From Tubulanus polymorphus (lineage: Eukaryota > Nemertea > Palaeonemertea > Tubulaniformes > Tubulanidae): a stretch of DNA of 64,000 bases. Where the stretch lies: NCBI RefSeq assembly GCF_964204645.1, contig NC_134028.1, forward strand, positions 1,302,001-1,366,000, read 5' to 3'. Each line of letters begins with the position of its first letter. The stretch's first letter is position 1. Of the stretch, positions 16,200 to 59,751 are shown piece after piece. Under the pieces are notes generated by a model, which made no database searches, had not been told where the DNA came from, and saw only the letters and a list, made by a program, of their open reading frames with translations. Made by a program: the position numbers and the translations under genes.

Positions 16200-16590
16200 A
16201 GCTGCACCAGCGCGGACTGCAGCTAGCAGCTACTACTATATGCACCGCAGCACCAGTCCGGACTGCAGCTACTGCTGTAGGCCTACATAACTGCACCAGT
16301 CCAGACAACAGCTAGGCCCTACTGCTGTATGTACTGCACCAGTCCGAACTGCAGCTACTGCTGTACGTAACTGCACCAGTCCAGACTGCAGCTAGGCCCT
16401 ACTGCTATATGTATTGCACCAGTCCGGACTGCAGCTACTGCTGTACGTAACTGCACCAGTCCGGACTACAGCTAGGCCCTACTACTGTATGTATTGCACC
16501 AGTCCGGACTGCAGCTACTGCTGTATGTACCACACCAGCGCCGACTGCAGCTACTGCACCAGTTCAGACTGCAGCTACTGCTGTAGTATC
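16200..16590. repeat. CTGCACCAGTCCGGACTGCAG tandem repeat
   Basis: About ten units of 35-45 bp share the core CACCAGTCCGGACTGCAGCT. Two alternating variants (ACTGCTGTACGTAA and AGGCCCTACTGCTGTATGTA tails) make an approximately 80-bp dimer. Each core is a near-palindrome (CTGCAC..., CAGTCCGGACTG), so single strands can fold into hairpins. Confidence 0.85.
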
Positions 16591-17412: not shown

Positions 17413-17420
17413 CGCTATAC
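17413..17420. other. left target-site duplication (8 bp)
   Basis: CGCTATAC, identical to 33792-33799. The bases on either side differ between the two sites, so the match is exactly 8 bp. The distance from each copy to the first conserved terminal base is the same at both ends. Confidence 0.9.
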
Positions 17421-17442
17421 GAGTTGCATATGAGCTATCCAC

Positions 17443-17490
17443 GTTCCCGTCTCGACCCGTTACTGTCTCGACCCGTTCCCGTCCCGACCC
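17443..17490 (+). repeat. three 16-bp terminal core repeats, left
   Basis: GTTCCCGTCTCGACCC, GTTACTGTCTCGACCC and GTTCCCGTCCCGACCC lie end to end. The first is identical to the core found in nearly every 59-bp unit of the internal arrays. The same trio, in inverted order, is at 33722-33769 and equally far from the element end. I infer transposase binding sites. Confidence 0.85.
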
Positions 17491-18058
17491 TACCGTACAA
17501 TAGCGCCACCGCAGTCGATAATTTGAACTAAAACACTTCGGCGCGTATCGGATTCGTTTTTCGCATGTTATAAATGGTTGAAGAACGATCAGTGAAACAT
17601 ACCAACAATTTTAAAAAGTCAATTAGATTTTATAAAACTTTTCATTAAAAAGATCGAATGAAGAAAACGCCTCCAATGTCAACAGAGGTAAAAATTCAAG
17701 ATGCGAAGTTAGCAATTTCCAGTCGAGATTTCCTCCCAGAATATTACTGAAGTGGGTTTAAACTGTTTTCAAATGTAATGTTGAATAAATCATACGAGTT
17801 TAATTATTTTGGTTTCAAGTTTCAAATGATATCAACTTTCGGCTTCAAATCTCTCAAAACTCAGTTCTAAAAATGACCCCTCTCGGCCGGGGGCATTTTG
17901 TTTAGGGTACATTTTATTTTGCCATTAATCAGTTCGAATTCATCAAATTTATGAAGAAAATTAATGTATGAATTTTGCAAAAAAATAAAGATGATTGTTA
18001 AATTTATAACGCGTTGTCTTTCTCTACCAGATCCCGTCGGTCTTTCTCCGATGGACAT

Positions 18059-19554
18059 GTTCCGGTCTCGACCCGTCACCTGTCTCTACTCTCTAGACAG
18101 TCCCGTGGACGCTATGTTCCCGTCTCGACCCCTCACATCTGTCTCTACTCTCTACACAGTCCCGCGGACACTATGTTCCCGTCTCGACCCTTCAAATCTG
18201 TCTCTACTCTCTACACAGTCCCGTGGACACTATGTTCCCGTCTCGACCCTTCACATCTATCTCTACTCTCTACACAGTCCCGTGGACACTATGTTCCCGT
18301 CTCGACCCTTCAAATCTGTCTCTACTCTCTACACAGTCCCGCGGACACTATGTTCCCGTCTCGACCCTTCAAATCTGTCTCTACTCTCTACACAGTCCCG
18401 TGGACGCTATGTTCCCGTCTCGACCCTTCACATCTGTCTCTACTCTCTACACAGTCCCGTGGACCCTATGTTCCCGTCTCGACCCTTCAAAACTGTCTCT
18501 ACTCTCTACACAGTCCCGTGGACCCTATGTTCCCGTCTCGACCCCTCACATCTGTCTCTACTCTCTACACAGTCCCGCGGACACTATGTTCCTGTCTCGA
18601 CCCTTCAAATCTGTCTCTACTCTCTACACAGTCCCGTGGACCCTATGTTCCCGTCTCGACCCCTCACATCTGTCTCTACTCTCTACACAGTCCCGTGGAC
18701 CCTATGTTACTGTCTCGACCCTTCACATCTATCTCTACTCTCTACACAGTCCCGTGGACGCAATGTTCCCGTCTCGACCCTTCAAAACTGTCTCTACCCT
18801 CTACACAGTCCCGCGGACACTATGTTCCTGTCTCGACCCTTCAAATCTGTCTCTTCCCTCTACACAGTCCCGCGGACACTATGTTCCCGTCTCGACCCTT
18901 CAAATCTGTCTCTACTCTCTACACAGTCCCGCGGACACTATGTTCCCGTCTCGACCCTTCAAATCTGTCTCTACTCTCTACACAGTCCCGCGGACACTAT
19001 GTTCCCGTCTCGACCCTTCAAATCTGTCTCTACTCTCTACACAGTCCCGCGGACACTATGTTCCCGTCTCGACCCTTCAAATCTGTCTCTACTCTCTACA
19101 CAGTGCCGCGGACACTATGTTCCTGTCTCGACCCTTCGAATCTGTCTCTACCCTCTACACAGTCCCGTGGACCCTATGTTCCCGTCTCGACCCTTCAAAA
19201 CTGTCTCTACTCTCTCAACAGTCCCGTGGACGCTATGTTCCCGTCTCGACCCTTCAAACCTGTCTCTACTCTCTCAACAGTCCCGTGGACCCTATGTTCC
19301 CGTCTCGACCCTTCAAAACTGTCTCTACTCTTTCAACAGTCCCTTGGACGCTATGTTCCCGTCTCGACCCTTCAAATCTGTCTCTACTCTCTACACAGTC
19401 CCGTGGACCCTATGTTCCCGTCTCGACCCTTCAAATCTGTCTCTACTCTCTACACAGTCCCGCGGACGCTATGTTCCCGTCTCGACCCTTCAAATCTGTC
19501 TCTTCTCTCTACACAGTCTCATGGATATGTTCGTGTCTAGAGCCTTCACATCCG
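18059..19554 (+). repeat. left 59-bp satellite array (about 25 units)
   Basis: The unit begins GTTCCCGTCTCGACCCTTCA and continues through CTGTCTCTACTCTCTACACA to CAGTCCCGYGGACNCTAT; the period is 59 bp. Units differ at a few recurrent positions: TTCAAA/TTCACA, CGCGG/CGTGG, ACACT/ACGCT/ACCCT, CTACAC/CTCAAC. The last unit (19501-19554) is degenerate. The strand shown has no stop codons in any frame for most of its length, which explains the long overlapping open frames here. Confidence 0.95.
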
Positions 19555-19666
19555 TTTGAAGACAGTTTGTGGGACACCCTGACATATCTAATCGGTTTGT
19601 AATATTTCCAGTCAGTGGGACGAACCTTTTTAAAAAATGGAAATGAATATTACAGGTGGTCAAATA

Positions 19667-19672
19667 TTTATT
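19667..19672 (-). terminator. poly(A) signal of the transposase gene
   Basis: AATAAA on the minus strand, 242 bp beyond the stop codon and just inside the left array. It is the first such hexamer after the stop. Confidence 0.5.
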
Positions 19673-19913
19673 GATTAAAATCATGAAAAATCTACAAAAT
19701 CGATGCTGACATGCTGAATACTGATACATCTACACATAAGGCAAATTTCTACAAATTTAGTGCAATTCTCAGGAATACGTATGTACTAAACACATTAACA
19801 TGCAAACTCATTAAAATGAACGCAAGGAACCAAATTATTACAACCGACAGTTGTCATATTGGCCGAAATTCTAGGTTTTTGATAACCAATAAATCGGTAT
19901 ATCAGAAGTATAA

Positions 19914-22900
19914 CTAGGCTCCACTGTTTCTTGGCTGAATCCCGTGGTCTTCAATACGAAAGGCTTTCATTCTCATCTGAATTTCTTTATCATTTCTGCC
20001 TGTTGTAGCCCGACAAATCGTGAATGACAAATCATAACTTATATCGAAATATCTTGATACAAGATAACACACAGCCTCCATCTTTATGGCTTCAATAAAC
20101 CTGTGTCCACTAAAAATGTAACGACATGAAAAAACTGTTGATTATAGTATATGCATGAAACGCATACTGTAAGAGCAAGTGAGGTTTTACGTATGGGACT
20201 CGACCTTACCTTATCCAGTCTTTCAGAATGTACGATATGATTTTATTCGGTGCCATAAATGGAATGCGTACCGGTGGGTACTGTATATACATACTTAAAA
20301 AAAGGAAATTAAAATAGCAACAAATCATTGATATCGAATCATGATAGTGATCTTTTGTGATGGTGCAGCGAATCATATTCTTGGTGATCCGTACCTTGGG
20401 TGTAGATAAATCTTTTTGCATATTGCTTGCGTGGCCCAAACATAGATGAAGTTAAGAGCACTTCGACGAATAACCATTACACCGTGTCCTTTGCTTGATA
20501 GTGGTTCAGGACGTATATATTTTTGGACAAGCCTGGAAAATAATAAAATATTATTATTCGAATTCAAAGTGGGCCTATACAAAATGTCGTGTGCGATGTA
20601 ACTTTGACTTTACTTTATAAGGAAACATTAGTATGTAAATTAATAAAATTAGTGATAAATTTGTGTAATAAGCATCACAGAATTATCAAAACTTAGCGAA
20701 TATTTGATATTTTCGGATGGTTTTCAGCATGTACAAGTACTGCCGTACCGTACATATAATATGCTTTCATCTTAAGAGCAATTAAAAGTCACAATTGCAA
20801 GCAGAATATAAATCAAAGCTTACAAACACTGTTCTTGAGTCAATGTATTTGTTATATATCGGTTGAGGTCATCAAGCTGTAAAAAATGAAAATACTGTAC
20901 ATCAAAATAGATTCACATGGGCACATTTACAATCAATCCGTCGTTGGCAAGATTAAGCTGAAAGCCACCAAGGCTCTTTTGCCTTTTAGGATATATATGA
21001 AACTGACGTGAGATCTATTTGTTACTTGAATAGCATGCTTTACGCAAGTTGAAAATAAAATTCTTACAATTGCGCGCCGTTTTTCCAATAAATACTTGAG
21101 AGGGACTTGGCGACCATCATCGTTTTCTGAAGTGTCTGGTTCAATTTTCTGAAAGCACGCCCCACAGATCATGTAGTCAGGAAACCTTAAAAAATACATA
21201 TATTTTCACATGGGGTGGTGAGTGATAAAGTTTTGCTCACTAACTCTCATATCCTACACCCACCTTATCTCAAGTTCTTTGCAACAGATACATTTTTTCT
21301 CATTTCCATCTTTAAACAATGCATCCTAAAATTCGATATTATTCAAGACATAGCAAAAAGCAAACAGATTCAACTGGCACTGAAATCTGTTTTGCGAGGC
21401 CCATCGAATAAAATCAACAAGAACACAAAAGCCGATTAGTCCAAAAAAAAACTTGAATTACCTCCCATGTTCTTCGCAACTTCTCAATTTGGCACATGGG
21501 ACAACGGTAAGAATAATTGAACGTGTAGTCATCCGAATTTCCACCTATACACTCTGGGTGTATGGCCCAGTTGCAATTAAATCCATTGCAAACTATCACT
21601 TTCTTACTACAAAAACAAAAAGATTTTTGGTGTCCTTTACAAACCCACCATACCTGATGGGAGCGAAGTTTTAACTGAATGCGAAACTCACCATTTATTT
21701 GAACAGAAACAAAAGATCTTCCGTTTTCCACCTAACTCACTAACATCTTTTAATCTGCAAACTGGAACCTAAAACAAAGTGTGCCATTTTTCATTTATCA
21801 TGGACTTAACACAACATTAACGCATATATTGTAAATAACAAACCTGACGAGCTCTTGTTACTGCAAGCCCCCGAATTGTTTTCTAAAATATTGGATATCA
21901 AATTTTGATTGATGCAAGGCATAAATAATCAATCACTTCGAAATAGAAGATTCACTACATAGATCCTTTTCGACGTTTGATACAAAAATACAATAATCTA
22001 GGATAAGCTGCAAAGGTAAATACGTATAAAAGTATGATTTATAGGAGATCCAGTTACAGGGTTTCCAGTTAAAATTTGATTCTAGACTTAATACAATTCA
22101 AATCAACTAAAGGGCTAAATAACTGTGGAACCGGTCATTTGTTTTTTCCAAGTACCATTCTTTTACTGCTGATACATTTCTCACAAGTGAAACCAATTCG
22201 TTCTGCCTCCTGTTGCGACAAGTCACCAAGTCCTATACATACAGGATGGTACCACTCAACGCACCTTTCGCATGCGATGTATAAGCTACAAAATATCAAA
22301 TATCTAATGTAATTCGGAATTATAATAATCTTATTAGAGCTATGTATGTAATCATGATACACTAACCCTCCTGTATCGATTTTTTTACAAATACAATATT
22401 TCGCAGCTGACTGTGGCAATTCATAGAAAAAACTGCTGCGTCGTCTTGTCTGAAAAAGTGCATTTGATATTTTCAATTATCTGCATTCTACGTTAAACTA
22501 AACTTCTTCAATCTGCTACCACCGGTACCATACCTTCTTTGGATTTTCTCGGAGCTTCACCGTGGTTCTCGTTTCCAAGACCTGTCTTTGCTATAAAAAA
22601 GTGACATGACATACAATTTTTAACGAGCACAAAGACACCATTCCTTAATTTTGATACATATCAGGAATGCATGAAAAAAATACTTGTAGAGAATGCACCT
22701 CAAAAAAAAGTTCATCGCGCGTAGACATTTCTGGTGTTGGGTCATTCACCTATAAATCAAAGAGATCACATGAAATTAGTGAAACCTACATGCTGTTTGA
22801 ATATGGCTCAGATAACTAAGATATACCTCATATATTATATTTTCCTCGCCTATTTGCTGTTCGCGTTCATCGCGAGTAGACATTTCTGGTGTTGGGTCAT

Positions 22901-25900
22901 TCAGCTATAAATATAAAAGTAAGTAGAAACTGTAAATTAGTAAAACTTTATCCTCACATTTTCAACTAATGTTGTTACTTCATATTTTCATATGGCCTAC
23001 CTCTAATGATGTTGCTGGGCAAGAGGCATTGGTCACAGAATATATAGCTCCATTGCTGCTTTGATTTTTCAGATAATCTAGTCCTCGGAAGAGATCAAGA
23101 TCGATAGGCAGGGGCTGACTGGAGTCAATCAGACGGAAAGTATTGTCATTAAACTCCAGTACCAACCAGTGGTCTGTATCACTGGGCTTAATAATCATCT
23201 TTCTTTTCAAGGATGTTTGCAAAAATGCACTTGTCAACAGTTCAGTCAATTCTTCATAGGTCCTTGAGTTTTTTACACCTGATACAATGTTCAGAACTTG
23301 AAACCCACGTTGCTCTAGACATTCCATGATCACATCCATCGAATAAAATCCCTCTCTATCCCTCAGGGCAGATATCATGCAGGTTGGGCCAATTCCTGGA
23401 TTTTGCAACTGCCTAATCCACATTTCGTCTGATACACGATCCATATCATATACTGAAACACTGAACGAGCCATCTTCATCTGATCCAATCGCATTATTGA
23501 CCGCACAGAGTCCGCAGTAGTTGGTGGATCCTTGGATCTGCATAAAATCTCCTCGTTGAGTTTTCACTGATTTCACTTCAGCATGTCTGTTTGGTAATGC
23601 TGTTTGACCAATAACTTGAGCCGCGTATCTGAGGTTGCTGTGGGCTGCAAGCAGTTCATCACCATTTAGATTATCGAAGTCAAGGTTTCGGAAAATATCA
23701 CTGACATCCGAATTTAGAACTGCACGTAGATATGATGTACATTCGCTTCTCTGTCGATCACTATTATGACTGACTTTGGGTACAAAGGAAGACGATGTAG
23801 TATTTTCTGTATGACGTGAAATATTTGGAACAGAATTCGATGAGTTCGGGAAACTTTCGTTGCCGTGGAGAGAAGCATCGAGTCCACGCGTCATATCGCG
23901 AACAAACGCCCGTCCAAACTGATCTCGATCAAGCATGTCATTGCCTAGGTTTTCTCTAAGTTTATTTACGAGGGCATTGTTTATTTCTTCATTTCTCAAG
24001 TGCGAAGCGAGCCGGAAAACAAACATGTGAGTCGCCGGATTCATATTGTTGAGGAAATGAAGATTCTTTTTTCGGTTACTGAATTCCTGCTCAACCCGCT
24101 GACTGTCAATTAAACCTCCAACATTATCCAAAAGAGATATCCTCCGTAAAATCTCAACAGGACTCTTACAGTTTTCTTGATGAAACCAATCGTACAGGAT
24201 GTAGTGGTGAGATGAACGTGTTATTGGATGATCCTCATTTCCTATAGGTTCTGTGTTTGGTTCATAAATATATTTCAAGAATGTGGCCTCAAACGTGATT
24301 TGTCTTGTCTTTGCTTGCGCAATATTTTCATCGGAACTCTCTGCTAATCGACCATCGTGGGGTCGATACATATCACCATATCTGGAATTGGCAAACCTCG
24401 CCACAAGGTGAGCACTGTCACAGATAGATATTGTTGGTCGATGTTTCAGTGATCTCTCCAAGTCAACGTAGTCGCGAGGACTTTCACCCCGAAAATTGTT
24501 CTTTATGCAATATGTTACACCGTGGTCGCAACATCCAACTGCCCAGCCACCTTTCAGAAAAAAAAAACGCAAAATAATGCTATGTTTATGCGATTTTTGC
24601 GATGACAATGCGCGCGAGTGCGCGGTGTGTTCCTTACCGGTATGGCCAAAAATATCTTCATATAGGCTGTCGAACTTTGACCGAGACATCGACATACTTC
24701 TGAGGCGTAGAATCATGTCATTCGTAGACCCCTTGGAATCTACTTTCGCCTTCTTACAAAACTTTCTGATTTCCTTTACCTGCATCACAATGCGATTTAT
24801 ATAACGTATAGGACCTACCATTGTGTTAGTACTGACTAGTACATCATTTTACTTTCACAAAAGTGGAAGGTTTTACATATGCAATGCATAAAATGTGTAC
24901 CTTCTCATTTTTCAGGAGATGCTCCAAAGTATCAGGATGGATAGGCTCAACTCCTTCAGAACCACTATCTGTCGAGCACTTTTCAAATTCAGTGTTTATC
25001 AGAATTTCTGACTTTCTGGTATATTTCCCAATCCAAGGACTCCAGCATTCAAATGAAGGCCTCACAACATGTTCTACAAAAATTGAATACGTTTATCAAA
25101 AAACTTTTGAAACCGCATTTCACACACATGATCTGCCAGATGAAAATTTTATACATAATTAACATGATGTTGGATTTGAGTTTCTACCTTTATGGCATTT
25201 CGATCCTTTGCTCACTATTTCCTTTTCGATATCATTCCAGAAAGAAACGCAGTCGACTTCCTCGTTCAAAGATACTGGTGGCGCCAAATCTGAAACTGAA
25301 ATAAGAGATAATTCATTCACAGTTCTATCTTATATAGACTAGATATAATGTATATCCCTATGGGAGGGGGTGCGTGTACACCCTCCTAAAATTGCCAAGC
25401 TTCTTTGTGATTTGGGAAAATAAATATTAAGCTGATACCTAAGAAAGTTTAAATTCGTCTCTTGTTCTCTGTATTTCCAAGAATGAGTTAACGTTTTCCG
25501 AGGAGGTTTTTTCGGGGTGTCTCGTAATTATATGATATGCCCTATTTTGGGGGTTCACCCTACCTGAGTCAGACCCTGGATTCCCTTGATCAAACTGAAA
25601 CTAATACACAGAATACACAGAATACGCAGAACAGTCATAGACTCACGGTTGTAACGAAAACAGGCTTTTCGGAATGTATCCCATATCAATATGGGTGGGT
25701 AGTATCCACAGGATATGCAATAGAAGTCATAGCTATGACTTGTCATAGCTTCATAGTGGAGATACCCTTGCTGTAACGAGTTTAAAGGTATTTGCTCTCC
25801 TGATAGAGACGTCAGAATATTAATTGAGGTTTGTATAGCCACGTGATTCTGAAAATACAAGCAAAAATCATAAAATATGTAATTAATAATTAAATGATAA

Positions 25901-28525
25901 GGTATTAAATGATATTACATTTTTCGATGCGTTGATAAAACATAGTCAAAAAGTGATGATCACATTTGCAAAATATATCATAAATCACCATATAATAATT
26001 ATCTAACAATGTTATGAGTAAATACCTTTATTCCTTCTCGGATGGTCTTGCACAGCTCTAATGTCATAAATGTAGAATTGTTGAAGTTATGAATGCCATC
26101 TTGCCATTCCTGATAGCGATATGTCATCCCACATCCAATGCATTTCTTTATATGAACAGGTATATCTACCAAATCAATTGAAGAATAATATATACGATAA
26201 AAAGAAACTGAATATTCACGAATATAAATAAGATAAACCTTCATATAATGTCCTACGTACTTTTATGAACTTCATGAATACCAAAGATTCTACCAGAGCC
26301 AACTAATTGAGGGGACAATGTAGCATTGCAAGAAACGCATGACTCTTCACGAGGAACTATTGTTGAAATCTGTGCAACCTTGGTAGTGAGATCAGATGGT
26401 AAATCAACAGGTACCAGTTTTCTTTCAATTACGTACTGCAATTCTTTTTCATCAAGTTCGTTGTGGTTCGTTGTGGTGCATGGTTGGTTGGTTCCTGTTG
26501 TAACCGTAGCTCTATTATATTGGTTGTTATACCATGTACAACAAACTTTATGGACGCAGAATTTAGAGCCTTTGATACAATTACATCGATACAGTTTTCT
26601 CATACTGTCATACACCACAACCGTACGGCCCAATTTCGAATAATATCTCTTATCCTTGCACAGAACAGAAAAATACCGATAACGATCAGACTGATCAAGA
26701 ATCAAAGAGATTAGAGGAACACCATCTCTCAATGACTTTTCATACAGAGCTTCGACTTTTGGAATATGCTCGGCTTTAACGATGTTTCCATCAGCTAGTT
26801 CATTCAAATATTTCACATCCAATATTGGATTGTTCACAGTTGCGGTTACATAACTGACGGATTTTAGATGGGCGCATTCAAATGAATGATTACTTGAGAT
26901 GGCAGCCGCATGCTTTGCATCCCTACAGCTCCTCAATTCACAGAAAATTTCTGAATTTTCTGTCGTTTTCTTTTTTACGTGAATCGGATTTGAATGTCCG
27001 ATCATCGATGGGAAAACGGCAAATATCCCCTGTCTATTGTCGACGCAAACTGCTCGGTGGTGATGTCGCTCAGTGATCCTGCTTGCCGCCGCAGCTTTAT
27101 TTTTCTGACATATATGGATATGTATTTTCATCCATTTCGAAGACAAAACTTTTTCACAATGGGGACATTTCTCCGTTTTCTTTTGTTTGGTCGCATTGTT
27201 GCAGCTATTAGTGTTGCACTGTTGTTTTTCTCTTACATGAGAAACAACAGGTTGCTGTTTTGGATGACAACATTTTTCCATATGTTTAGAGAGTCTTCTT
27301 CTGTCGTGTGCTTTGTGATCACAAAAAAAGCAATGGTAGTGAGATCGCTTCATACAGTTTTGATGACAGATAACACTATATAATCTTGAAATGGAAAAAA
27401 AGAAATATAAAAATCTACCTTTTGCAAATAGTCGCAATTGAGCAAAAACGCGATTTCCAGTAATTATAGGGATATGTATGGTGGCTGATTCGGATCACGT
27501 AAAAAAAGAGAAATTATCCCACTCGATCTCCACCAATTTTTTTTACATATTAAAAACGTTGTTTTACGCTACGTCAAGAACAAAGTTTAATTTAGAACGA
27601 AAAACTGGTTTTAACGTGGCATTAAAAAGAAAAATGTAGAATTCGAAAATTGGTGGAAACCGAGTGTCATCTATTATTTTTTTAATGTGGCCCGAATCAC
27701 GAACCAGCCACAATAGACTATATGAGATCAGTTCATTCCCCGCTTTCCTGGGACCGGTTCCATAATCAGGGCTTAGACTTAAGCGGCCGTCGCGTTATAT
27801 AGCCTTGCATAAATCACAACATAACGAAACAAGACTACAAAACGCACTAGTTCAATGGCACGAAGCTCTTTGAAAACCATCGTTTCGATAATTTTGGATT
27901 CCATATAGTTTTCGAAACAATTACATTCATAATTTATTTCAATTCACCATTTTGAAATATTCACGTTTCTATTTTTTTTGGAAGAGAAAAATATATTGTT
28001 TATTCTTTATGTATCATTGATCGAATCTGAAATTAGATCGTATACCTCAGCTCAGTGACATTGAAAATTCGTTGATAGACTTTTTATTTCAGATGATTCT
28101 ATAGTGATGGCCGCTTGCTCTGGAGGTTTTCAGTAATGAAAATGAGTCAATTTTCATCTAAATGATGTGCCCGACAAAAAACGTTTTTACCTCATCGGTC
28201 AGATTTTTCATCACCCGTTGAGAAACTAATCGATTCAATTTAATGTATATATAAACCAAAAATGGAATACACAAGAAATTTAAAACCTAAAGAAGACTCA
28301 CCGGTCTGAATCGTCTCTGTCCCTCAGAGGTACGGGTATTCTGGTCGTCCAGTGCACCTGCGACAAGTGTTGGTCGACATGATGTTTTTTCTTAGGCTTA
28401 TACCTGACGTTGCTACATAAAGAGCAGTGGTACCTTTCACTTGGAGGTCTGTCGATGCAACAGGTCAAAAAACAAGGCTGGAGCCCAGCCTTCAAGTCGG
28501 ACACATTCTTGAAGAAAGTGGCCAT
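19914..28525 (-). CDS. KDZ-like transposase fused to Josephin protease and PHD fingers
   Basis: Twenty-one exons join with GT-AG introns and matching phases at every junction: 28525-28302, 27384-26261, 26165-26026, 25848-25647, 25295-25188, 25073-24901, 24779-24638, 24550-23001, 22904-22827, 22749-22699, 22590-22534, 22449-22367, 22285-22156, 21768-21692, 21606-21462, 21325-21264, 21185-21068, 20876-20824, 20532-20395, 20293-20210, 20109-19914. This gives 4,935 nt and 1,644 aa. In order: a C2H2-like finger (about 33-60); C2HC/C2H2 fingers (93-113, 148-167); a SWIM finger CNC...CVH (342-353); the motif IPVHIKKCIGCGMTYRYQEW; a split DDE core with D553 (ILIWDTFRK), D749 (CDSAHLVA) and E858 (SQRVEQEFS) and a SAP-like insert from 658; a Josephin domain (about 1036-1195); PHD fingers at about 1301-1345 and 1373-1420; and an unrecognised tail (1429-1644). 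The core resembles HMGXB3-like/KDZ proteins; this is from memory of motifs, not a search. The gene presumably mobilises the surrounding element from the nucleus. Exons 14-16 and the start codon are the least certain. Confidence 0.85.
22699..22904 (-). repeat. tandemly duplicated small exon
   Basis: Exons 9 (22904-22827) and 10 (22749-22699) of the transposase gene begin with nearly the same sequence, encoding LNDPTPEMSTRDE and VNDPTPEMSTRDE. Both are phase 0-0, and their acceptors are also alike (ATTTATAG before CTGAATGA or GTGAATGA). This is a local exon duplication; either copy could be skipped without shifting the frame. Confidence 0.8.
23080..23560 (-). other. Josephin-type cysteine protease domain
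   Basis: Residues about 1036-1195 of the transposase protein. QGSTNYCGLCAVNN aligns with the Josephin catalytic motif (Q, then Cys six residues before NN), placing C1050 as nucleophile. GFYSMDVIMECLEQRGFQV matches the region after it. HWLVLE with H1165 and D1180 (LIDSS) has the 15-residue His-to-Asn/Asp spacing of ataxin-3 and Josephin-1/2. All catalytic positions are present, so an active deubiquitinase-like enzyme is expected. Confidence 0.75.
24050..25848 (-). other. DDE catalytic core of the transposase
   Basis: Exon 4 gives YDFYCISCGYYPPILIWD, the first acidic residue (D553) after a CxxC. Exon 8 gives the second (D749) and the third (E858, in SQRVEQEFS), followed by HFLNNMNPATHMF. Spacing and flanking motifs (GESPRDYVD, HYILYDWFHQENCK) follow the metazoan KDZ/HMGXB3-like pattern. 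None of the three acidic residues is replaced. Confidence 0.7.
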
Positions 28526-29039
28526 TATTTTGAATATATTTCTACTATGCGGACATCACAAAACCGAGCACATCAATAACGCAAAGTTTTCGGTCTCTGG
28601 TATCTTCAAAGCAGTATTTGTAATACCAACGTTTAAGACCATGGATCGTGTCCCCGATAAGAAACGATTGAAATGAGCGTTTGTTTCAGTTTTCTATATG
28701 TTTTTTAAGAGTTGAGGTTGACGGGAGTTACTCAATTAGAGCATACCAACGTTAGTGATACAACAGTTCTGTCAACACTAAGAAACCATTAAGCATTTGC
28801 CAGGTTTCTACGTTGTACATCTTCTAGGCTATATATGACAGCAATGCATTAAAACCATTTGTGATTAATTATATGCAACATCCTATGTTCTAACCGTCAT
28901 AAACAGTTCCCACAAACACTGAAATAAATGTGTTTCGATGCTTATGTACCGTAACGCGACGATGAATTTCATTAGCTATAATCGTTTGTATACATTTTAC
29001 ATAACTTGAACTTGAACCCATCGAAGTCTAATCGATGAG
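28526..29039. other. upstream region of the transposase gene
   Basis: This should hold the transposase promoter. I see no clear TATA box with convincing spacing and no further exon. Confidence 0.4.
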
Positions 29040-29115
29040 AGGCGCGGTGGCCGAGTGCATTATGCCGCAGGTCGCTGGTCTCTTCAATTCACGGTTTGGT
29101 TCAAACCCTGGTGGC
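29040..29115 (+). mobile_element. tRNA-like SINE head inside the transposon
   Basis: GCGCGGTGGCCGAGTGCATT resembles a class II tRNA (Ser/Leu) 5' half with an A box, and GGTTCAAACCC is a B box 45-50 bp later. Pairing of the stems is incomplete and no clean acceptor end is seen. A retroposon nested between the transposase promoter and the right array is the best reading; its 3' limit (possibly to about 29230) is not defined. Confidence 0.5.
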
Positions 29116-29351
29116 GACAATATTTCTCGGTCGAAGGTTCTTTTCTCCATTTAATTAGGAAAAAGAATCATCGAACCCTACGTGGCGCTTAGCGGTTTAA
29201 GAGTTTAAAAATAAGTCTAAAATAAGTCTTATTACGGTAAACAGCATTATTTACAGTGCACGGGAAATTATAACTTTTGGGAGTAGAACGTGGTTTTCTG
29301 AATCTCCGGTCGCCGGAGACAGTTTTATGGGTCGACTAGATGGGAACGACA

Positions 29352-32300
29352 GGTGTGACGGGTCCAGGCGGGAACATAGGGTCCACGGGACTGTGTAGAG
29401 AGTAGAGACAGGTTTGAAGGGTCGAGACGGGAACATAGGGTCCGCGGGACTGTGTAGAGAGTAGAGACAGATTTGAAGGGTCGAGACGGGAACATAGCGT
29501 CCACGGGACTGTGTAGAGAGTAGAGACAGTTTTGAAGGGTCGAGACGGGAACATAGCGTCCACGGGACTGTGTAGAGAGTAGAGACAGATTTGAAGGGTC
29601 GAGACGGGAACATAGCGTCCGCGGGACTGTGTAGAGAGTAGAGACAGTTTTGAAGGGTCGAGACGGGAACATAGCGTCCACGGGACTGTGTAGAGAGTAG
29701 AGACAGATTTGAAGGGTCGAGACGGGAACATAGCGTCCACGGGACTGTGTAGAGAGTAGAGACAGATTTGAAGGGTCGAGACGGGAACATAGCGTCCAAG
29801 GGACTGTTGAGAGAGTAGAGACAGTTTTGAAGGGTCGAGACGGGAACATAGGGTCCACGGGACTGTGTAGAGAGTAGAGACAGGTTTGAAGGGTCGAGAC
29901 GGGAACATAGGGTCCAAGGGACTGTTGAGAGAGTAGAGACAGATTTGAAGGGTCGAGACGGGAACATAGGGTCCACGGGACTGTGTAGAAAGTAGAGACA
30001 GGTTTGAAGGGTCGAGACGGGAACATAGCGTCCACGGGACTGTTGAGAGAGTAGAGACAGTTTTGAAGGGTCGAGACGGGAACATAGCGTCCACGGGACT
30101 GTGTAGAGAGTAGAGATAGATGTGAAGGGTCGAGACAGGAACATAGGGTCCACGGGACTGTGTAGAGGGTAGAGACAGATTCGAAGGGTCGAGACAGGAA
30201 CATAGTGTCCGCGGCACTGTGTAGAGAGTAGAGACAGTTTTGAAGGGTCGAGACGGGAACATAGGGTCCACGGGACTGTGTAGAGAGTAGAGACAGATTT
30301 GAAGGGTCGAGACGGGAACATAGGGTCCACGGGACTGTGTAGAGAGTAGATACAGGTTTGAAGGGTCGAGACGGGAACATAGGGTCCGCGGGACTGTGTA
30401 GAGAGTAGAGACAGATTTGAAGGGTCGAGACGGGAACATAGCGTCCACGGGACTGTGTAGAGAGTAGAGACAGTTTTGAAGGGTCGAGACGGGAACATAG
30501 CGTCCACGGGACTGTGTAGAGAGTAGAGACAGTTTTGAAGGGTCGAGACGGGAACATAGCGTCCACGGGACTGTGTAGAGAGTAGAGACAGATTTGAAGG
30601 GTCGAGACGGGAACATAGTGTCCGCGGGACTGTGTAGAGAGTAGAGACAGATTTGAAGGGTCGAGACGGGAACATAGTGTCCACGGGACTGTGTAGAGGG
30701 TAGAGGCAGATTTGAAGGGTCGAGACGGGAACATAGGGTCCACGGGACTGTGTAGAGGGAAGAGACAGATTTGAAGGGTCGAGACAGGAACATAGTGTCC
30801 GCGGGACTGTGTAGAGAGTAGAGACAGATTTGAAGGGTCGAGACGGGAACATAGGGTCCACGGGACTGTGTAGAGGGAAGAGACAGATTTGAAGGGTCGA
30901 GACAGGAACATAGTGTCCGCGGGACTGTGTAGAGAGTAGAGACAGATTTGAAGGGTCGAGACGGGAACATAGGGTCCACGGGACTGCGTAGAGGGAAGAG
31001 ACAGATTTGAAGGGTCGAGACGGGAACATAGGGTCCACGGGACTGTGTAGAGAGTAGAGACAGATTTGAAGGGTCGAGACAGGAACATAGTGTCCGCGGG
31101 ACTGTGTAGAGAGTAGAGACAGGTTTGAAGGGTCGAGACGGGAACATAGGGTCCGCGGGACTGTGTAGAGAGTAGAGACAGGTTTGAAGGGTCGAGACGG
31201 GAACATAGGGTCCGCGGGACTGTGTAGAGAGTAGAGACAGTTTTGAAGGGTCGAGACAGGAACATAGGGTCCGCGGGACTGTGTAGAGAGTAGAGACAGA
31301 TTTGAAGGGTCGAGACGGGAACATAGCGTCCGCGGGACTGTGTAGAGAGTAGAGACAGTTTTGAAGGGTCGAGACGGGAACATAGCGTCCACGGGACTGT
31401 GTAGAGAGTAGAGACAGATTTGAAGGGTCGAGACGGGAACATAGCGTCCACGGGACTGTGTAGAGAGTAGAGACAGATTTGAAGGGTCGAGACGGGAACA
31501 TAGCGTCCAAGGGACTGTTGAGAGAGTAGAGACAGTTTTGAAGGGTCGAGACGGGAACATAGGGTCCACGGGACTGTGTAGAGAGTAGAGACAGGTTTGA
31601 AGGGTCGAGACGGGAACATAGGGTCCAAGGGACTGTTGAGAGAGTAGAGACAGATTTGAAGGGTCGAGACGGGAACATAGGGTCCACGGGACTGTGTAGA
31701 AAGTAGAGACAGGTTTGAAGGGTCGAGACGGGAACATAGCGTCCACGGGACTGTTGAGAGAGTAGAGACAGTTTTGAAGGGTCGAGACGGGAACATAGCG
31801 TCCACGGGACTGTGTAGAGAGTAGAGATAGATGTGAAGGGTCGAGACAGGAACATAGGGTCCACGGGACTGTGTAGAGGGTAGAGACAGATTCGAAGGGT
31901 CGAGACAGGAACATAGTGTCCGCGGCACTGTGTAGAGAGTAGAGACAGTTTTGAAGGGTCGAGACGGGAACATAGGGTCCACGGGACTGTGTAGAGAGTA
32001 GAGACAGATTTGAAGGGTCGAGACGGGAACATAGGGTCCACGGGACTGTGTAGAGAGTAGATACAGGTTTGAAGGGTCGAGACGGGAACATAGGGTCCGC
32101 GGGACTGTGTAGAGAGTAGAGACAGATTTGAAGGGTCGAGACGGGAACATAGCGTCCACGGGACTGTGTAGAGAGTAGAGACAGTTTTGAAGGGTCGAGA
32201 CGGGAACATAGCGTCCACGGGACTGTGTAGAGAGTAGAGACAGTTTTGAAGGGTCGAGACGGGAACATAGCGTCCACGGGACTGTGTAGAGAGTAGAGAC

Positions 32301-32978
32301 AGATTTGAAGGGTCGAGACGGGAACATAGTGTCCGCGGGACTGTGTAGAGAGTAGAGACAGATTTGAAGGGTCGAGACGGGAACATAGTGTCCACGGGAC
32401 TGTGTAGAGGGTAGAGGCAGATTTGAAGGGTCGAGACGGGAACATAGGGTCCACGGGACTGTGTAGAGGGAAGAGACAGATTTGAAGGGTCGAGACAGGA
32501 ACATAGTGTCCGCGGGACTGTGTAGAGAGTAGAGACAGATTTGAAGGGTCGAGACGGGAACATAGGGTCCACGGGACTGTGTAGAGGGAAGAGACAGATT
32601 TGAAGGGTCGAGACAGGAACATAGTGTCCGCGGGACTGTGTAGAGAGTAGAGACAGATTTGAAGGGTCGAGACGCGAACATAGGGTCCACGGGACTGTGT
32701 AGAGAGTAGAGACAGATTTGAAGGGTCGAGACGGGAACATAGGGTCCACGGGACTGCGTAGAGGGAAGAGACAGATTTGAAGGGTCGAGACGGGAACATA
32801 GGGTCCACGGGACTGCGTAGAGGGAAGAGACAGTTTTGAAGGGTCGAGACGGGAACATAGCGTCCGCGGGACTGTGTAGAGAGTAGAGACAGTTTTGAAG
32901 GGTCGAGACGGGAACATAGCATCCACAGGACTGTGTAGAGAGTAGAGACAGATGTGACGGGTCGAGACAGGAACATCG
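29352..32978 (-). repeat. right 59-bp satellite array (about 61 units)
   Basis: Reverse-strand copies of the left array unit; on the plus strand they read GGGTCGAGACGGGAACATAG and onward. Units carry the same recurrent variants as on the left. A block of about 29 units is duplicated within the array (see separate entry). The minus strand is free of stop codons in all three frames for over 3.5 kb. Confidence 0.95.
29581..32750 (-). repeat. higher-order duplication: 1,711 bp = 29 units
   Basis: Rare unit variants recur at a fixed distance of 1,711 bp (29 x 59): CATAGCGTCCGCGG at 29611 and 31322, AGCGTCCAAG at 29791 and 31502, GCGGCACTGT at 30211 and 31922. Near the outer end the distance becomes 1,770 bp (GGACTGCGTA at 30981 and 32751), because one unit containing GACGCGAACA is additional. 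A block of roughly 1.5-1.7 kb was therefore copied once as a whole. Confidence 0.9.
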
Positions 32979-33346
32979 GAGTAAGATAACGCGTCATGAA
33001 TTTAACAATCATCTTTATTTTTTTTTGCAAAATTCATACATTAACTTTCTTCATAAATTTGATGAATTCGAATTGATTAATGGCAAATAAAACATGCCCC
33101 AAACAAAATGCCCCGGGCCGGGTCGTTTTTAGAAAAAAACGGTTTGAGAGATTTAAAGAAAGTTGATTTTATTTTATAGAAACCAAAATAATTACACTCG
33201 TGTAATTTATTCAAGATTATATTTGAAATTAGTTTAGCTTTACCAGTAAATATATATTATTTCTAGGAGGAAATCTCGACGGGAAATTGCTTACTTCACT
33301 TCTCGAATTTTTTGTCCTGTTGACAGTGGAGGCGTTTTCTTGGCAA

Positions 33347-33559
33347 AAGTGCAGATCCACACCTCTCGTGATTGACGCAATCTGCTGAATGACAGAATCC
33401 AGGCTAAAATCTTTCTATGGAAGATACCCGGGTGAAGATATCTAAAAATTAACCAATGGCAATGTACTGAATTGCTGAATTTTGAATCTGAAATATTGAT
33501 ATCATATGTAGGCCCTAATTGATTGAACCGTTTATGCGGAGAGGTGTGGATCTGCACTT
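33347..33559. mobile_element. 213-bp MITE inside the right terminal repeat
   Basis: It is bounded by perfect 20-bp inverted repeats, AAGTGCAGATCCACACCTCT and its complement, and is absent from the corresponding place in the left inverted repeat. The flanks on either side both resemble the uninterrupted left sequence (AAGAAAACG and AAGGAAACG), suggesting a target duplication of about 9 bp; a few extra bases at the edges remain unexplained. It has no coding capacity. Confidence 0.85.
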
Positions 33560-33721
33560 AAGCTTATACCGTTTCCTTCTTCGATCTTTTCAATGAAAAG
33601 TTTTCAAAAATCTAATTGACTTTTTAAAATTGTTGGTAGGTTCACATGCGAAAAACGAATCCGATTCGCGCCGTAGTTGTTTAGTTCAAATAATCGACTG
33701 CGGTGGCGCTATTGTACGGTA

Positions 33722-33769
33722 GGGTCGAGACGGGAACGGGTCGAGACAGTAACGGGTCGAGACGGGAAC
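33722..33769 (-). repeat. three 16-bp terminal core repeats, right
   Basis: GGGTCGAGACGGGAAC, GGGTCGAGACAGTAAC and GGGTCGAGACGGGAAC lie end to end, 22 bp from the element end, in mirror order to 17443-17490. The first and third equal the core of the 59-bp array unit. Confidence 0.85.
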
Positions 33770-33791
33770 GTGGATGGCTCATATATATATG

Positions 33792-33799
33792 CGCTATAC
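33792..33799. other. right target-site duplication (8 bp)
   Basis: CGCTATAC, identical to 17413-17420. Confidence 0.9.
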
Positions 33800-35285: not shown

Positions 35286-38200
35286 TTATAACGCGTTTCG
35301 TTGAATTCCATGTAAACCGGAAAATGAAGACGAATAAAGTATATCATTTCTCGCCATCAAATGTGCCCTTGGTGTTCTCGGAGGATAAACATTATTCACC
35401 CTGTTTGGATAACCGAACGGTAGAGGTGGTCTGAAGAAGTTCAAATCTCTATAATTCGTCGTCGGATTTCGGTGACGATGAGTTGGATATATGTGATACG
35501 ACGAATTGACGGATGGAGGCGGTTTTAATTTAAAAAGATTATAGTTCGGTTGATTTTGAAGACGTTTCGCGCGGGAATTTGAACAGTTTTGAAGTTTAAT
35601 CGGTTTGTATAACGGTAACTGTAGTGATTGTGACGATTGACGAGTCGTAATTGATTGCGTGCTAATTTCTCGAGTTAGTGTTGGAGATGTCTGTGTCTCG
35701 GCGTTTGACTTCTTATCTAACTCAGTTTGCACCGACACGTCCAATCTAATCGTTTTCGAGGGTATTCCACTGTCGTCGGAGCGAGAATGTTTTCTACTGA
35801 GATCGATCGGGATATTATGTAGGGTTTTCTCTCCTGTAAAGGAAAGATTTAAAGCTTCTTCTTGAAAAGTGGATCCATCCTGTCTTACACCGATACGTAG
35901 ATCAATCGGTTCTCCTCTATCAGTCGATGCAGGGACGCCAGCGAGGACCTCACTGGTTTTTATTTCTATTGGCTCTCCTTCATGAGTTGATGACGTTCTA
36001 TCAATTGACGTTTCTATTCTCTTGTTATGATGAGACTTCGTACCCTGAAAAGATATGACAAAGTTTTCATTCGATTTGTTTCAGAGGTTCATCTTTGCAG
36101 CAATCCCCGATTGTTACTCATTCTCCCCGCTGAACCACATAATCATCACAACAAAACATTCTGACTTTTAAAATATTGAATGCAACTTACAACGGGTTTC
36201 TTCGGAAACAACCCATCAACGTTTCGGTTCCTGAATTCAGCGGGTGACGCTTTCTTCGGAATCAACCCATCAACATTTCGGTTTCCCAATTCCGCTGGTG
36301 ACGCTTTCTTCGGAAACAACCCATCAACATTTTGGTTTCTGAATTCAACGGGTGACGCTTTCTTCGGAAACAACCCATCAACATTTCGGTTTCTTAATTC
36401 AGCGGGTGACGCGTTGATTATCGAGAACCATTTATCTATAACCTTATCAATGAGAGATGAATCTATAATTCGCGTTATGTTGTTGTTCGCGTCGTCCTCA
36501 GTTGAAATCATTGTAGATTCATCACAAATGTTCATGTTTTGTATTGGTTGGCGATTATCTACATCACTTCCACGCGAGAGAGCCCGTTGAAACTCCCTGT
36601 GCGCAGAGTGAATAGACCAACTACTACTTAGGTCTTCACAACTCTGTGATTCTTCACTAGTCGAGGTGTTTAACGTATTCCAAAGAAGCGTAGGCTTAGT
36701 TGTTGTAGATGCATGGTTGCATCCTCTTGAACCTCGATGCTCGGTAGAATCTGCTGGAACATTTACAATACTATTTTGTTGATATGTTGATATTGAATCT
36801 TGTTTGGAAGAGGCTGCTAGATTTTCGGGTTGGATGATAGATGAATGGGTCACTGGCGCAACTAGTTGAAGCGTCAACTCATCAGGTGACGAAACACACT
36901 GACGAGCTGCAGAATCTTGATGAAGATTATCAGTCGCAATAGAGGAGTCACGTTGAAGGGTCGCTTCATTAACAGGTGGCGAAACACACTGACTAGCTGC
37001 AGAATCTTGACGAAGATTACCAGTCACAATAGAGGAGTCACGTTGAAGGGTCGCTTCATCTACAGGTGACGAAACACACTGACTAGCTGCAGAATCTTGA
37101 CGAAGATTATCAGTCACAATAGAGGAGTCACGTTGAAGGGTCGCTTCATCAACATGTGGCGAAACAAACTGACTAGCTGCAGAATCTTGACGAAGATTAC
37201 CAGTCGCAATAGAGGAGTCACGTTGAAGGGTCGCTTCATCCGGGACAGCACACATAGATTGAGTCACTACTGGGGATTTTTGTTGAGGAGCAATGGATTC
37301 AGCTTTAGATGACGATGTTGATGATTTGTGGCTTGTGATGATCGTTTCATCGATTAAGACAGGTGGATCATTCGTATGAGAACAGAGCAGTGTTTCAGTT
37401 GAATCGACAGAATACCGCCTCACAACTTCATCTATGAGATTTTCTAAATTGGAAATTTCTCGATCCGACATTGCACGATTTTTTATCTTTCGTTTTTTCT
37501 TTATTGGACTAACGATGTAATATTGATTTCCACCAATTAACCGGAGTTTTATCGGCAGCACCATCGACGGAGCAACGTCAAAATCATCATCTACCGTACT
37601 TGACATAGGACGTACGACCAGTTCGTTCTGTCGCATCCTTTTTCCATTTTCGTTTTCAGTATCAAAACTGAGTTTCCTTTTCAACGTTTCGATGTTTTCG
37701 GATTCATTTTGTGAGTTATATTTACGATTTTTCCATGAACTTTCGAACAATACGGTTTCCGGTGCAGGATCCGTTTCGCTTTCGTAAAACACAGTCAGAT
37801 TATCATCGACAAGTTCTGATGAAGGAAACGTAATGGAACTCGAATTTTCATTTGACACACTGAATGTCAATCCGCTAGTTCCATCACTGACAGCAGCATC
37901 ACCGTATTTCAGAAATTCCAAAGTGCCTTTCATCGGTGACCTAGATTGGTCAGGTACATATAATTGTAAACTTTCGATCAAATCCACTCGCGTCGAGATT
38001 ACGTCACTGAGAATTGCGTCACGATATATTTCTTTTCTTCTTTTAAGCATTCGATTTTTGATCGATGCTGACGAGTCGTAATCGACAACTCGTCTGGTGG
38101 GATATCTAGTGCTTGTACAGTCATCATTCATGCAGGCTGATTTACATGAACTTAATGACATATTCTGGTCAATTGTTGAAGCCGTTAGTTCATTCTCATC

Positions 38201-41200
38201 AACTTCACTCAATTTCAAATCTTTACACTCGGGTTGGTTTTCTTTATTCACACATGTGTTGATATCAGAGGTTACTCCATCGAGTTGCAAAGACGCCGCA
38301 AAATCTTTCGCCTGAGTTGTGTCGTATCCGGAACTATTAGATAGGGTTTTATGTAGCGTGGAACACTCGAGACCTAATTCATTCAGATTGTTCGTAGTTT
38401 CTACAGTTTGCTCATTTTGACTACTAGGCATATTTTCAAGGTTTACAACAATCCTGGAAACATCTTCCATGTTTATATCAGTTCGTTCATTGTCAGTTTT
38501 CGATGAATCGATCCCAGTACATGTATCGACAATTACATTCGCAACATCAATCTGTACACTTCCCTGTTCCGAGCTCAACTTCGTATGAATGCCTCCTCTT
38601 CCTATCGAAACATTTAAATTATTTGCCTCGGTGTCTTCATCAGGTTTTTCGATTTTAACATGAATACTTATGTCATTTGTACACCCATCATCTTCAATCC
38701 AAACTTTTGAAGTGTAGTTCAATATTTCATGATCATCGATGCTTTGTAAGAATTTTACCACGAGTTCGTTGGCAAAAACGTTCGCGATATTCGTAAATAA
38801 GACATGTTCAATACAAGACATCATAGAGACGACCACATCATCATCAAGACGTTTGCCAGTTATCGAAATATATTTCGATTCGTAGAGCATAAACAACTGA
38901 CGTGTTGCGCTAGATAATTTGAGTACCATTCCAACCAATGACGATTCGGTTGTTATTATTTCCTCGATGATTTCTGTTGACTCGGAGGTTACATCATTTT
39001 TGAGACATGTTTCCAGTATTTTCTTATCCTCAGCAGATGTGAGTTTACACAGTTCATTAGTGAGTGTAGTGATTATATTAGAAACAGCATCTGCATCCCT
39101 CGATTGATCGGACGTCACTAAAATCTGAGTTATCTTTGATTCAAGCAACTCGCGAAATATGTTAAGTTTTTCATTTTGCTGACCATGTTGTATGCTAAGC
39201 CAATTAGATACAGTTTTGTCCGTTTCAGTTAAAGCTTTAGCCGATATGACGCCTTCGCCAGAAGCATCAAAACAGCTAATTGCTTCTGTTTTGGAGACGG
39301 TATTGTAGGGATGATCTAATTCCGAGCTGGAAATTTCTACCTCATGTTGAATATCAATGCGATCGGATGAAAGATAAGTCACTTGAGGTTGTACTTCATT
39401 AGTATATACATTTTCATCAGCAATGGCATAAGCATCAACTTGTTCATCAGTACGATAATCATTTAAAACCAACTTGCTTTCATCAGCGGCATGGCGCCTC
39501 TCTTCTTCATTAACCACAGTCTTCTCTATATCTATCTCGATAATCTGAGGAGCATTCCTATTCTGCTGAACCTCCTCAATCACAATCAAATCAATCTCAG
39601 GAGTGTCTTCTTGTTCATTCTTTTTACTATTAATTTCCTCTATGAAATCAATCTCAGGAGCATTCCTATTTTGCTGAACCTCCTCGATCAAATCAATCTC
39701 AGGAGCATTCCTATTTTGCTGAACCTCCTCAATCACAATCAAATCAATCTCAGGAGTGTCTTCTTGTTCATTCTTTTTACTATTAATTTCCTCTATGAAA
39801 TCAATCTCAGGAGCATTCCTATTTTGCTGAACCTCCTCGATCAAATCAATCTCGGGAGCATCTTCTTGTTCATTCTTTTTGCTATGAATCTCTTCTATCA
39901 AATCGATCTCAGGAGCATTCCTAATTTGCTGAGCCTCTTCAATTAAAATCAAATCAATCTCAGGAGCATTCCTATTTTGCTGAACCTCCTCAATCACAAT
40001 CAAATCAATCTCAGGAGTGTCTTCTTGTTCATTCTTTTTACTATTAATTTCCTCTATGAAATCAATCTCAGGAGCATTCCTATTTTGCTGAACCTCCTCG
40101 ATCAAATCAATCTCGGGAGCATCTTCTTGTTCATTCTTTTTGCTATGAATCTCTTCTATCAAATCGATCTCAGGAGCATTCCTAATTTGCTGAGCCTCTT
40201 CAATTAAAATCAAATCACGCTCAGGAGCATTCCTATTTTGCTGAACCTCCTCAATCACAATAAAATCGATCTCAGGAGCATTCCTAATTTGCTGAACCTC
40301 TTCGATAACAATCAAATCAATCTCGGGAGCGTCTTCCTGTTCATTCTTATTACTATAAATCTCCTCAATCATGTCAATCTCAGGAGCAGATTCTTGAGCA
40401 ATTTCATCTTGCTCATTCGTGTTCCTTTGCATCTCCTCAATATCATCCAAATTCAGAATTTCAGTAGTATCGCTCCAAGTATCTTCTTCACAGGGAAGCA
40501 AAGCATTATCATCAAACGTTTCTACCATCGAGTCACTTTCATTAACTCCATTGCGAATACCCTCAGAACTATGAAGTCTTTTTTCAGCAACAGTATTATT
40601 CAAACTGTCACATGAAGCTAATTCCTCAAGGGCAGCTTTGTTTTTCCAAATATCACTCTCAGAGTTCGAACTCAGACTACCCACAGCCCACTCACAAGTA
40701 ATAGATTGTTCACTGTCCACTGCTTCATGATTCACTACATGATCACCATTATCATCAGTGTCATCGTTGTCATCAGTATCATCGTTGTCATCAGTATCTA
40801 TGAGTAACGAATAATCAACATCACTAGCGCAGAAATCATCATCATCATCAGTTACATGTGATAATAAGTCCTCATCATCATCAGTTGGACACCTATTCGC
40901 TTGAAATTGTAGAAAGTTTTGAAATCTTAAATTCAGATCATTTTCAGTATTATCATCATCAAAAACAACACTGTGATCTCCAAGCTCATCTAAGTAACCC
41001 GCCAGTGAGTTATTTGTCTTTCTCACATGACAATTTTCGTGCTGCAGTTTAGCAGAATATTCGGATTTCGACATGTCCAATAACGAATTACCAATTTCAG
41101 GCAGAGATATAAAGTTTTCAAAATCGACTAGTTCTGAATCCTCTGATTTGATAAGTAGATTTTCAAACGCCTTTTTGCACAGTGGAACACTGAATTCATC

Positions 41201-43996: not shown

Positions 43997-59751
<15,755 letters not shown>

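Follow-up and report, generated by a model that had tools for sequence, protein, structure and literature searches.

Is the interval at positions 17413–33799 of a 64-kb window of contig NC_134028.1 from the nemertean Tubulanus polymorphus a complete transposable element, to which lineage does it belong, and has it moved recently? The window is the whole stretch of 64,000 nucleotides that was analysed, and plain coordinates refer to it. A preliminary description, drawn up from the DNA letters alone, had called the interval a complete KDZ-like transposon, unusually large and possibly active. The interval holds an insertion flanked by 8-bp duplications, a near-identical second copy lies elsewhere in the genome, and its tips are common to shorter, gene-less copies that moved recently. 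Very probably it is a DNA transposon of the cut-and-paste type, complete and autonomous, that comes from a CxC4-bearing, KDZ-associated lineage and works by the mechanism proposed below.

Boundaries of the element and its target-site duplication

The transposon itself measures 16,371 bp (17421–33791, with its gene on the minus strand). The 8-mer CGCTATAC abuts both the left terminus (17413–17420) and the right terminus (33792–33799), and these termini are common to other copies in the genome, which bears out the earlier claim of a complete element with a perfect 8-bp target duplication. The accompanying claim that the 8-mer occurs exactly once on each side was wrong: a third CGCTATAC lies at 413, making three in the window, and the genome contains 2039 forward and 1897 reverse matches, 3936 in total. 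Identity of the 8-mers at exactly both ends would be expected by chance in about 1 in 65,000 pairs if equal base frequencies are assumed, and by itself the 8-mer is little proof. The proof comes from the tips, GAGTTGCATATGAGC... at the left and ...GCTCATATATATATG at the right, which recur elsewhere in the genome beside other 8-mers.

The terminal inverted repeats (left, 17421–17669, plus strand; right, 33550–33791, minus strand) are about 215–240 bp long, and they are 83% identical over 215 bp of the query, starting at the eighth base. Each contains three direct, head-to-tail copies of a 16-bp motif, GTTCCCGTCTCGACCC and its variants, at 17443–17490 and 33722–33769 respectively. The left tip reads GAGTTGC-ATATGAGC... 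and the right tip ...GCTCATAT-ATATATG; the outermost seven bases therefore differ between the ends and are not inverted, while at each end they are conserved among copies except for the length of the AT run at the right tip. The inverted ends of a DDE cut-and-paste transposon are thus present apart from the outermost 7 bp, and the earlier statement that the ends are inverted copies holds from about the eighth base inwards, but not at the very tips.

Copies elsewhere in the genome

The preliminary description had left it to a genome search whether the element has any relatives, and it does. A search with the right end (261 bases, namely the last 242 of the element and 19 of flank) found at least 42 matches in the genome, a lower bound because 40 of the 49 candidates were scored. 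The right terminal inverted repeat is 96–100% identical at 15 other places, at 14 of them over almost its whole length and at one from base 11. Both termini were located in 13 copies: the window copy and those on C6, C5 (two), C7, C11 (three), C8, C4 (27 kb), C3, C1 and C2. Perfect 8-bp duplications, the length looked for in KDZ elements, flank 11 of these 13; the C1 copy matches at seven of eight positions, and the C2 copy shows no match. One of the perfect duplications, on C5, is poly-A and says little. The tally covers only copies with both termini located, truncated or one-ended right-end matches being left out. Variation in the length of the right-tip AT run was allowed for in reading C3, C4 and C1. 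C8 has two right ends, and the outer one was used because the duplication fits there.

The second full copy, at C6:16120131-16136034, is 15,904 bp long and flanked by the duplication ATCCATAT. Over the 11,163 bp outside the internal arrays described below, 13 substitutions and a single 5-bp indel distinguish it from the window copy (1 difference in 620 bp at the left, 8 in 4327 bp, 4 plus the indel in 5414 bp of the gene region and 0 in 802 bp at the right), and the indel falls in a model intron. In both copies the main open frame has a stop-free stretch of 622 amino acids that is 100% identical between them, and 17 of the 21 exons of the gene model are also identical. At the left this similarity breaks off within 4 bases of the tip, and at the right it stops at the tip itself. 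A repeat present at many places makes up the C6 copy's right flank.

Shorter copies that lack the gene are also nearly identical at separate sites. One base separates the 3,166-bp copies on C7 and C11; another C11 copy and one on C5, each about 5,565 bp long, are separated by two substitutions and three gap letters in 5567. Both pairs are at least 99.9% identical, and none of the four copies holds any of the gene region 20120–29300. Among 20 regions of other copies compared (the interiors of the long C8 and C4 copies being left out), the gene region was found only as two C6 pieces and 483 bp in L057.

The joined flanks of the 27-kb C4 copy match C4:10157867-10158168 end to end at 96% identity, with the duplication AGTTCAGT present there singly; this locus is a related empty site of that copy. 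The other ten of eleven joined flank pairs gave no match across the junction among the matches listed. The joined flanks of the window copy (800 nt) matched only their own flanks and short repeats of about 37–73 bases (40 of 107 candidates scored). An empty site, which the preliminary description had suggested looking for, was thus found for another copy but not for the one in the window. The family has moved recently, because it includes a near-identical second full copy, near-identical short copies and a copy with an empty site. The preliminary reading is to this extent supported.

These data bear on whether the interval was ever mobile. A host gene set between satellite repeats, or a segmental duplication, might carry chance 8-mers at its edges; the commonness of CGCTATAC and the fact that no empty site was demonstrated for the window copy lean that way. 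Such an origin is scarcely credible, however, as the same conserved termini occur at many loci with mostly perfect duplications, the similarity between the window and C6 copies stops at the tips, and the C4 copy has an empty site. Both forms of this explanation were rejected on the strength of the 8-bp duplications together with that empty site.

It is also conceivable that the copy in the window moved once, recently, and is by now a silent relic whose gene is non-working or silenced, the short copies having been moved by another source. Several observations weigh in this direction and against autonomy: only two copies were found with both the gene and matching ends, these two differ in four of the 21 model exons, and the aligned pieces of short copies are 89–99.97% identical to one another and, outside the right tip, mostly 77–91% identical to the window copy among the matches listed. 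On the other hand, the conserved exons are open in both full copies, and 14 shorter or partial copies are 96–98% identical to the window copy over the 242 bp at the right end. A silent relic is therefore considered unlikely, and a working autonomous element remains the preferred explanation.

The gene and its protein

The gene was modelled provisionally with 21 exons encoding 1729 amino acids (19914–28525, minus strand); the model was trained partly on the window's own exons and received bonuses where paralogues align. Coding signal is almost lacking from the first exon and several small 3'-side exons, which may be modelled wrongly. A model with stricter splice sites (12 exons, 1318 amino acids) missed the CxC4 exon and was dropped. 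The single 21-exon gene of the preliminary description was recovered in its exon number and in its open conserved exons, although the product has 1729 amino acids in the new model instead of 1644.

The N-terminal part of the protein is rich in Cys and His and is encoded by a long second exon (26261–27384, minus strand), in which zinc-finger- and SWIM-like stretches were recognized by eye; the open frame of this exon alone has no Pfam match. The KDZ-associated CxC4 cysteine cluster (PF18717; 26029–26187, minus strand) scored 34.2 bits against a cut-off of 26.9, with 30.8 bits in the spliced model and 32 bits in a six-frame scan; a six-frame scan found CxC4 in none of 14 control genomes. A 517-amino acid exon (23001–24551, minus strand), identical in the C6 copy, encodes the transposase core and then a Josephin-type region. 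This exon is 57% and 52% identical to the paralogues L061 (on C1) and L062 (on C11), in both of which it is open, and the exons from the CxC4 domain to this exon are backed by conservation in the same two paralogues. L061 and L062 each have a stop codon in another exon and may be decayed.

Three conserved residues, all on the minus strand, are candidates for the D-D-E triad of an RNase H-fold catalytic core. The proposed first catalytic Asp (..PPILIWDTFRK.., 25678–25680) is kept in paralogues L061–L064 and L066. The second candidate Asp (..ISICDSAH.., 24417–24419) and the candidate Glu (..QRVEQEF.., 24090–24092) are invariant in the alignment of the window protein with L061 and L062; this Asp is also kept in the decayed L063 and L064 and is Asn in the decayed L066, and the Glu is kept in L063, L064 and L066.

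The Josephin-type (papain-like) region (23037–23549, minus strand) has a Pfam match covering exon residues 398–500. With a Pfam cut-off of 26 bits, the window protein scored 23.3–25.5 bits depending on the stretch given, L062 scored 38.0 bits (E 1.8e-9) and L061 15.3 bits. The sequences NYCGLCAVNN, DHW and (I/L)DS are conserved in all three proteins and, judged by eye, fit a papain-like Cys-His-Asp triad. The corresponding residues (Cys 23514–23516, His 23169–23171 and Asp 23124–23126, minus strand) were assigned by eye from the alignment, and the proposed Cys falls outside the Pfam match. Further downstream lies a PHD finger (PF00628; 22174–22281, minus strand) with 26.8 bits in the open frame and 32.7 bits in the spliced model (cut-off 24). 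The gene thus seems to join a transposase to a ubiquitin-cutting type of protease. NCBIfam gave no match for three proteins, and no convincing relatives were found among solved structures. The preliminary description had considered that profile searches might place the protein in a non-transposase family; none did so, the Josephin and PHD matches lying beside the core.

Relationship to KDZ and other transposons

KDZ (Kyakuja-Dileera-Zisupton) elements resemble the window element in their 8-bp duplications, as made by Zisupton, Dileera and KDZ1, and in having inverted ends of a few hundred bases, a multi-exon gene and a zinc-chelating CxC cluster (PMC12730594, PMC12810828, PMC9297572). The cluster is represented here by PF18717, above the cut-off in all three scans. 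The duplication length is not diagnostic alone, because hAT elements usually also make 8-bp duplications (PMC12730594); no Pfam match to a hAT transposase or dimerization domain was found in the window protein. KDZ1 is about 11 kb long with 241-bp inverted ends, and KDZ2 and KDZ3 make duplications of 4–8 bp (PMC12810828). Kyakuja makes 7-bp duplications and is without inverted ends (PMC12730594). The Cryptococcus elements KDZ1–3 carry CxC1, in contrast to the CxC4 of the window element, which also differs from KDZ elements in its 59-bp arrays, its Josephin-type and PHD parts and a core unmatched by PF18758. A literature search that left most subscription papers outside turned up no KDZ element described with a Josephin domain or with 59-bp arrays. 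At about 16 kb the element is large, as had been said, but it is not far from the roughly 9–11 kb of the KDZ elements in one fungus (PMC12810828).

Membership in the KDZ family proper is weighed against by the Pfam KDZ core, PF18758, which had no match at E 0.5 in 1590 of the 1729 model residues. A genome scan with this profile found nothing at the window locus or the C6 copy and 20 matches elsewhere, some of which are two exons of one copy. Because PF18758 matches there and not here, the element and the genome's Pfam-KDZ elements are at least far apart. Profile comparison (hhalign) of the core with the KDZ-positive L075 and L076 was negative, a shallow comparison in which the two are identical in protein, and shuffle tests of the core against L075 and L077, likewise shallow, were also negative. 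L075 and L076 lie on different contigs and share an identical, PF18758-matching protein over 156 amino acids, and they may represent another recent KDZ family. The KDZ placement first proposed is therefore kept as far as the CxC4 cluster goes, but not for the core. With less security, the element can be described as a CxC4-bearing, KDZ-associated DNA transposon, and it is not filed as a member of the Pfam KDZ family.

HMGXB3 is a vertebrate gene thought to have descended from a KDZ-like transposase. HMGXB3-type proteins are presumably alike in having a CxC4/SWIM-like region ahead of a transposase-like core. In contrast, the window protein has no HMG box match in Pfam.

Internal arrays and the 16-bp motif

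Two inverted arrays of a 59-bp unit, absent from the preliminary description, lie inside the ends. The left array (18057–19525, plus strand) has 24.9 units, each with GTTCCCGTCTCGACCC or a variant, and starts 0.64 kb from the left tip; the right array (29348–32976, minus strand) has 61.5 units, the left-array unit being inverted, and starts 0.82 kb from the right tip. With no more than two mismatches allowed, 93 matches to the 16-bp motif were counted in the window. All fall within the element, 28 at the left in forward and 65 at the right in reverse orientation, against 0.01 in shuffled sequence.

The 16-mer shared with the tips is the best-conserved circular 16-base window of the unit (0.988, compared with 0.927 elsewhere), by a small margin, windows shifted by 1–3 bases being nearly equal. 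A total of 513 units, taken from 22 array readings, entered this comparison; those with over 16 mismatches in 59 were left out, as were the C11_10.4, C5_12.1 and C8 arrays, which are near copies of included ones. Array lengths vary widely across copies, and the motif sites in the arrays at up to one mismatch number 26 (left) and 63 (right) in the window copy and 49 and 29 in the C6 copy. Array length changes faster than sequence, because these two full copies are 99.9% identical elsewhere and yet have very different arrays. Three frames of one strand are stop-free in each of the regions 18002–19602 and 29251–33033, for up to 1,260 amino acids. The open frames of the arrays (three per array, of 501–534 and 1221–1260 amino acids) were rejected as genes, being a by-product of the stop-free 59-bp unit.

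The roughly 90 copies of the motif at the ends are probably landing pads for the moving enzyme. It is possible, if less favoured, that the arrays have no role in transposition and are satellite growth seeded from the tip motif. Tandem arrays expand passively, the lengths seen here are widely variable, and Tetris repeats have seeded satellite DNA (PMC4079207), all of which count against a function. A role in transposition is nevertheless suggested by the strict inverted order of the motifs, which is seen in all 11 two-ended copies available whole (window, C6, L041–L047, L052 and L053), and, with the small margin noted, by the tip motif being more conserved than any other part of the unit.

Galileo and Foldback/Tetris elements also have long inverted ends that contain tandem repeats in variable number (PMC3688188, PMC4079207), and an element of the Foldback/Galileo type, of the P-element superfamily and defined by long repetitive inverted ends, could be proposed. 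As in Galileo and Tetris, the tandem repeats of the inverted ends bear the tip motif and vary in number, and gene-less derivatives exist (PMC3688188, PMC4079207). Two Galileo repeats carry extra transposase-binding sites, with three mapped sites in the end that was studied, compared with the 28 and 65 motif copies counted above (PMC3688188). The ends are thus similar but the protein is different: no Pfam match to a THAP domain or P-element transposase was found in the window protein, which has the CxC4 domain instead. Assignment to the Foldback/Galileo type is accordingly improbable, and the CxC4-bearing, KDZ-associated lineage is preferred.

Long copies on C8 and C4

A 34-kb copy at C8:9767012-9801097 has an intact outer duplication, GTTGAAAA, and, at 9772627, an additional right end in its interior. 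Beyond this internal end, 1.5 kb of sequence matches C11:11158608-11160115, a locus without the element, at 98% identity, and the end of the cargo is 97–100% identical to C11:11151026-11154855. At a short shared stretch the cargo gives way to the element's last 1,049 bp, present here a second time and 99.8% identical to the internal right end. The cargo is about 27.4 kb long, and its two ends match C11:11151026-11160115, a span of about 9.1 kb. Flank capture is the probable origin of the C8 cargo: gap repair would have copied the flank of another copy, which fits an excising element, and C11 would then show that other copy's site without the element, with one of the eight duplication bases differing.

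The 27-kb copy at C4:19420494-19447779 has a 224-bp stretch of the element on both sides of an insert of about 21 kb. Of this insert 2.9 kb was searched; it is a high-copy repeat with at least 138 matches. Cargo capture was rejected for this copy, as the insert sequence matches many places and nested repeat insertion is more likely.

Other features of the window

Outside the element, and within 1 kb of its left end, an array of about 80-bp repeats lies at 16205–16581. A 1,744-amino acid open frame occupies 36146–41380 on the minus strand; it contains tandem repeats of 54, 90, 153 bp and other lengths and has no Pfam match at E 0.01. Two likely host exons were recognized, both on the minus strand, one with a PDZ domain (PF17820, 50.2 bits; 59248–59769) and one with a formin FH2 match below the cut-off (25.1 of 34.8 bits; 46884–47342). 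No tRNA genes or Rfam families were matched in the window.

Proposed mechanism and significance

The multi-exon gene would encode a DDE-type transposase that binds the 16-bp motif. Three motifs per tip and one in nearly every 59-bp unit would together form a large inverted binding platform that pairs the two ends, for which there are precedents in Galileo, whose long inverted ends carry additional binding sites within their tandem repeats (PMC3688188), and in Tetris, where the number of such repeats varies (PMC4079207). The transposase would cut at the tips and insert the element through 8-bp staggered cuts. Repair synthesis through the tandem arrays after excision would alter array length and may sometimes copy in foreign flank DNA.

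The Josephin-type region and the PHD finger may be accessory, the former most simply shielding the transposase from ubiquitin-dependent turnover and the latter most simply reading chromatin. Helentrons are a precedent for transposons with a cysteine-peptidase domain of a deubiquitinase class (VTD or OTU), although they are rolling-circle elements, unlike the window element (PMC9741609). In that account of Helentrons, Josephin appears once, within a list of deubiquitinase classes (PMC9741609). A bolder and rather doubtful extension is that the transposase carries an active deubiquitinase which, directed by the PHD finger, strips ubiquitin from the element's own transposase or from host chromatin, with the roughly 90 motifs in two inverted arrays forming a multivalent assembly platform whose length is reset at each repair cycle and which enables a 16-kb element to move in spite of its size.

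One genome thus holds two near-identical full copies, gene-less derivatives and an empty site of a large, recently mobile transposon. Whether inverted ends with arrays of transposase-binding sites compensate for the cost of a long element, as proposed for Galileo (PMC3688188), can now be tested, as can the question of why a transposase would carry a deubiquitinase-type domain.

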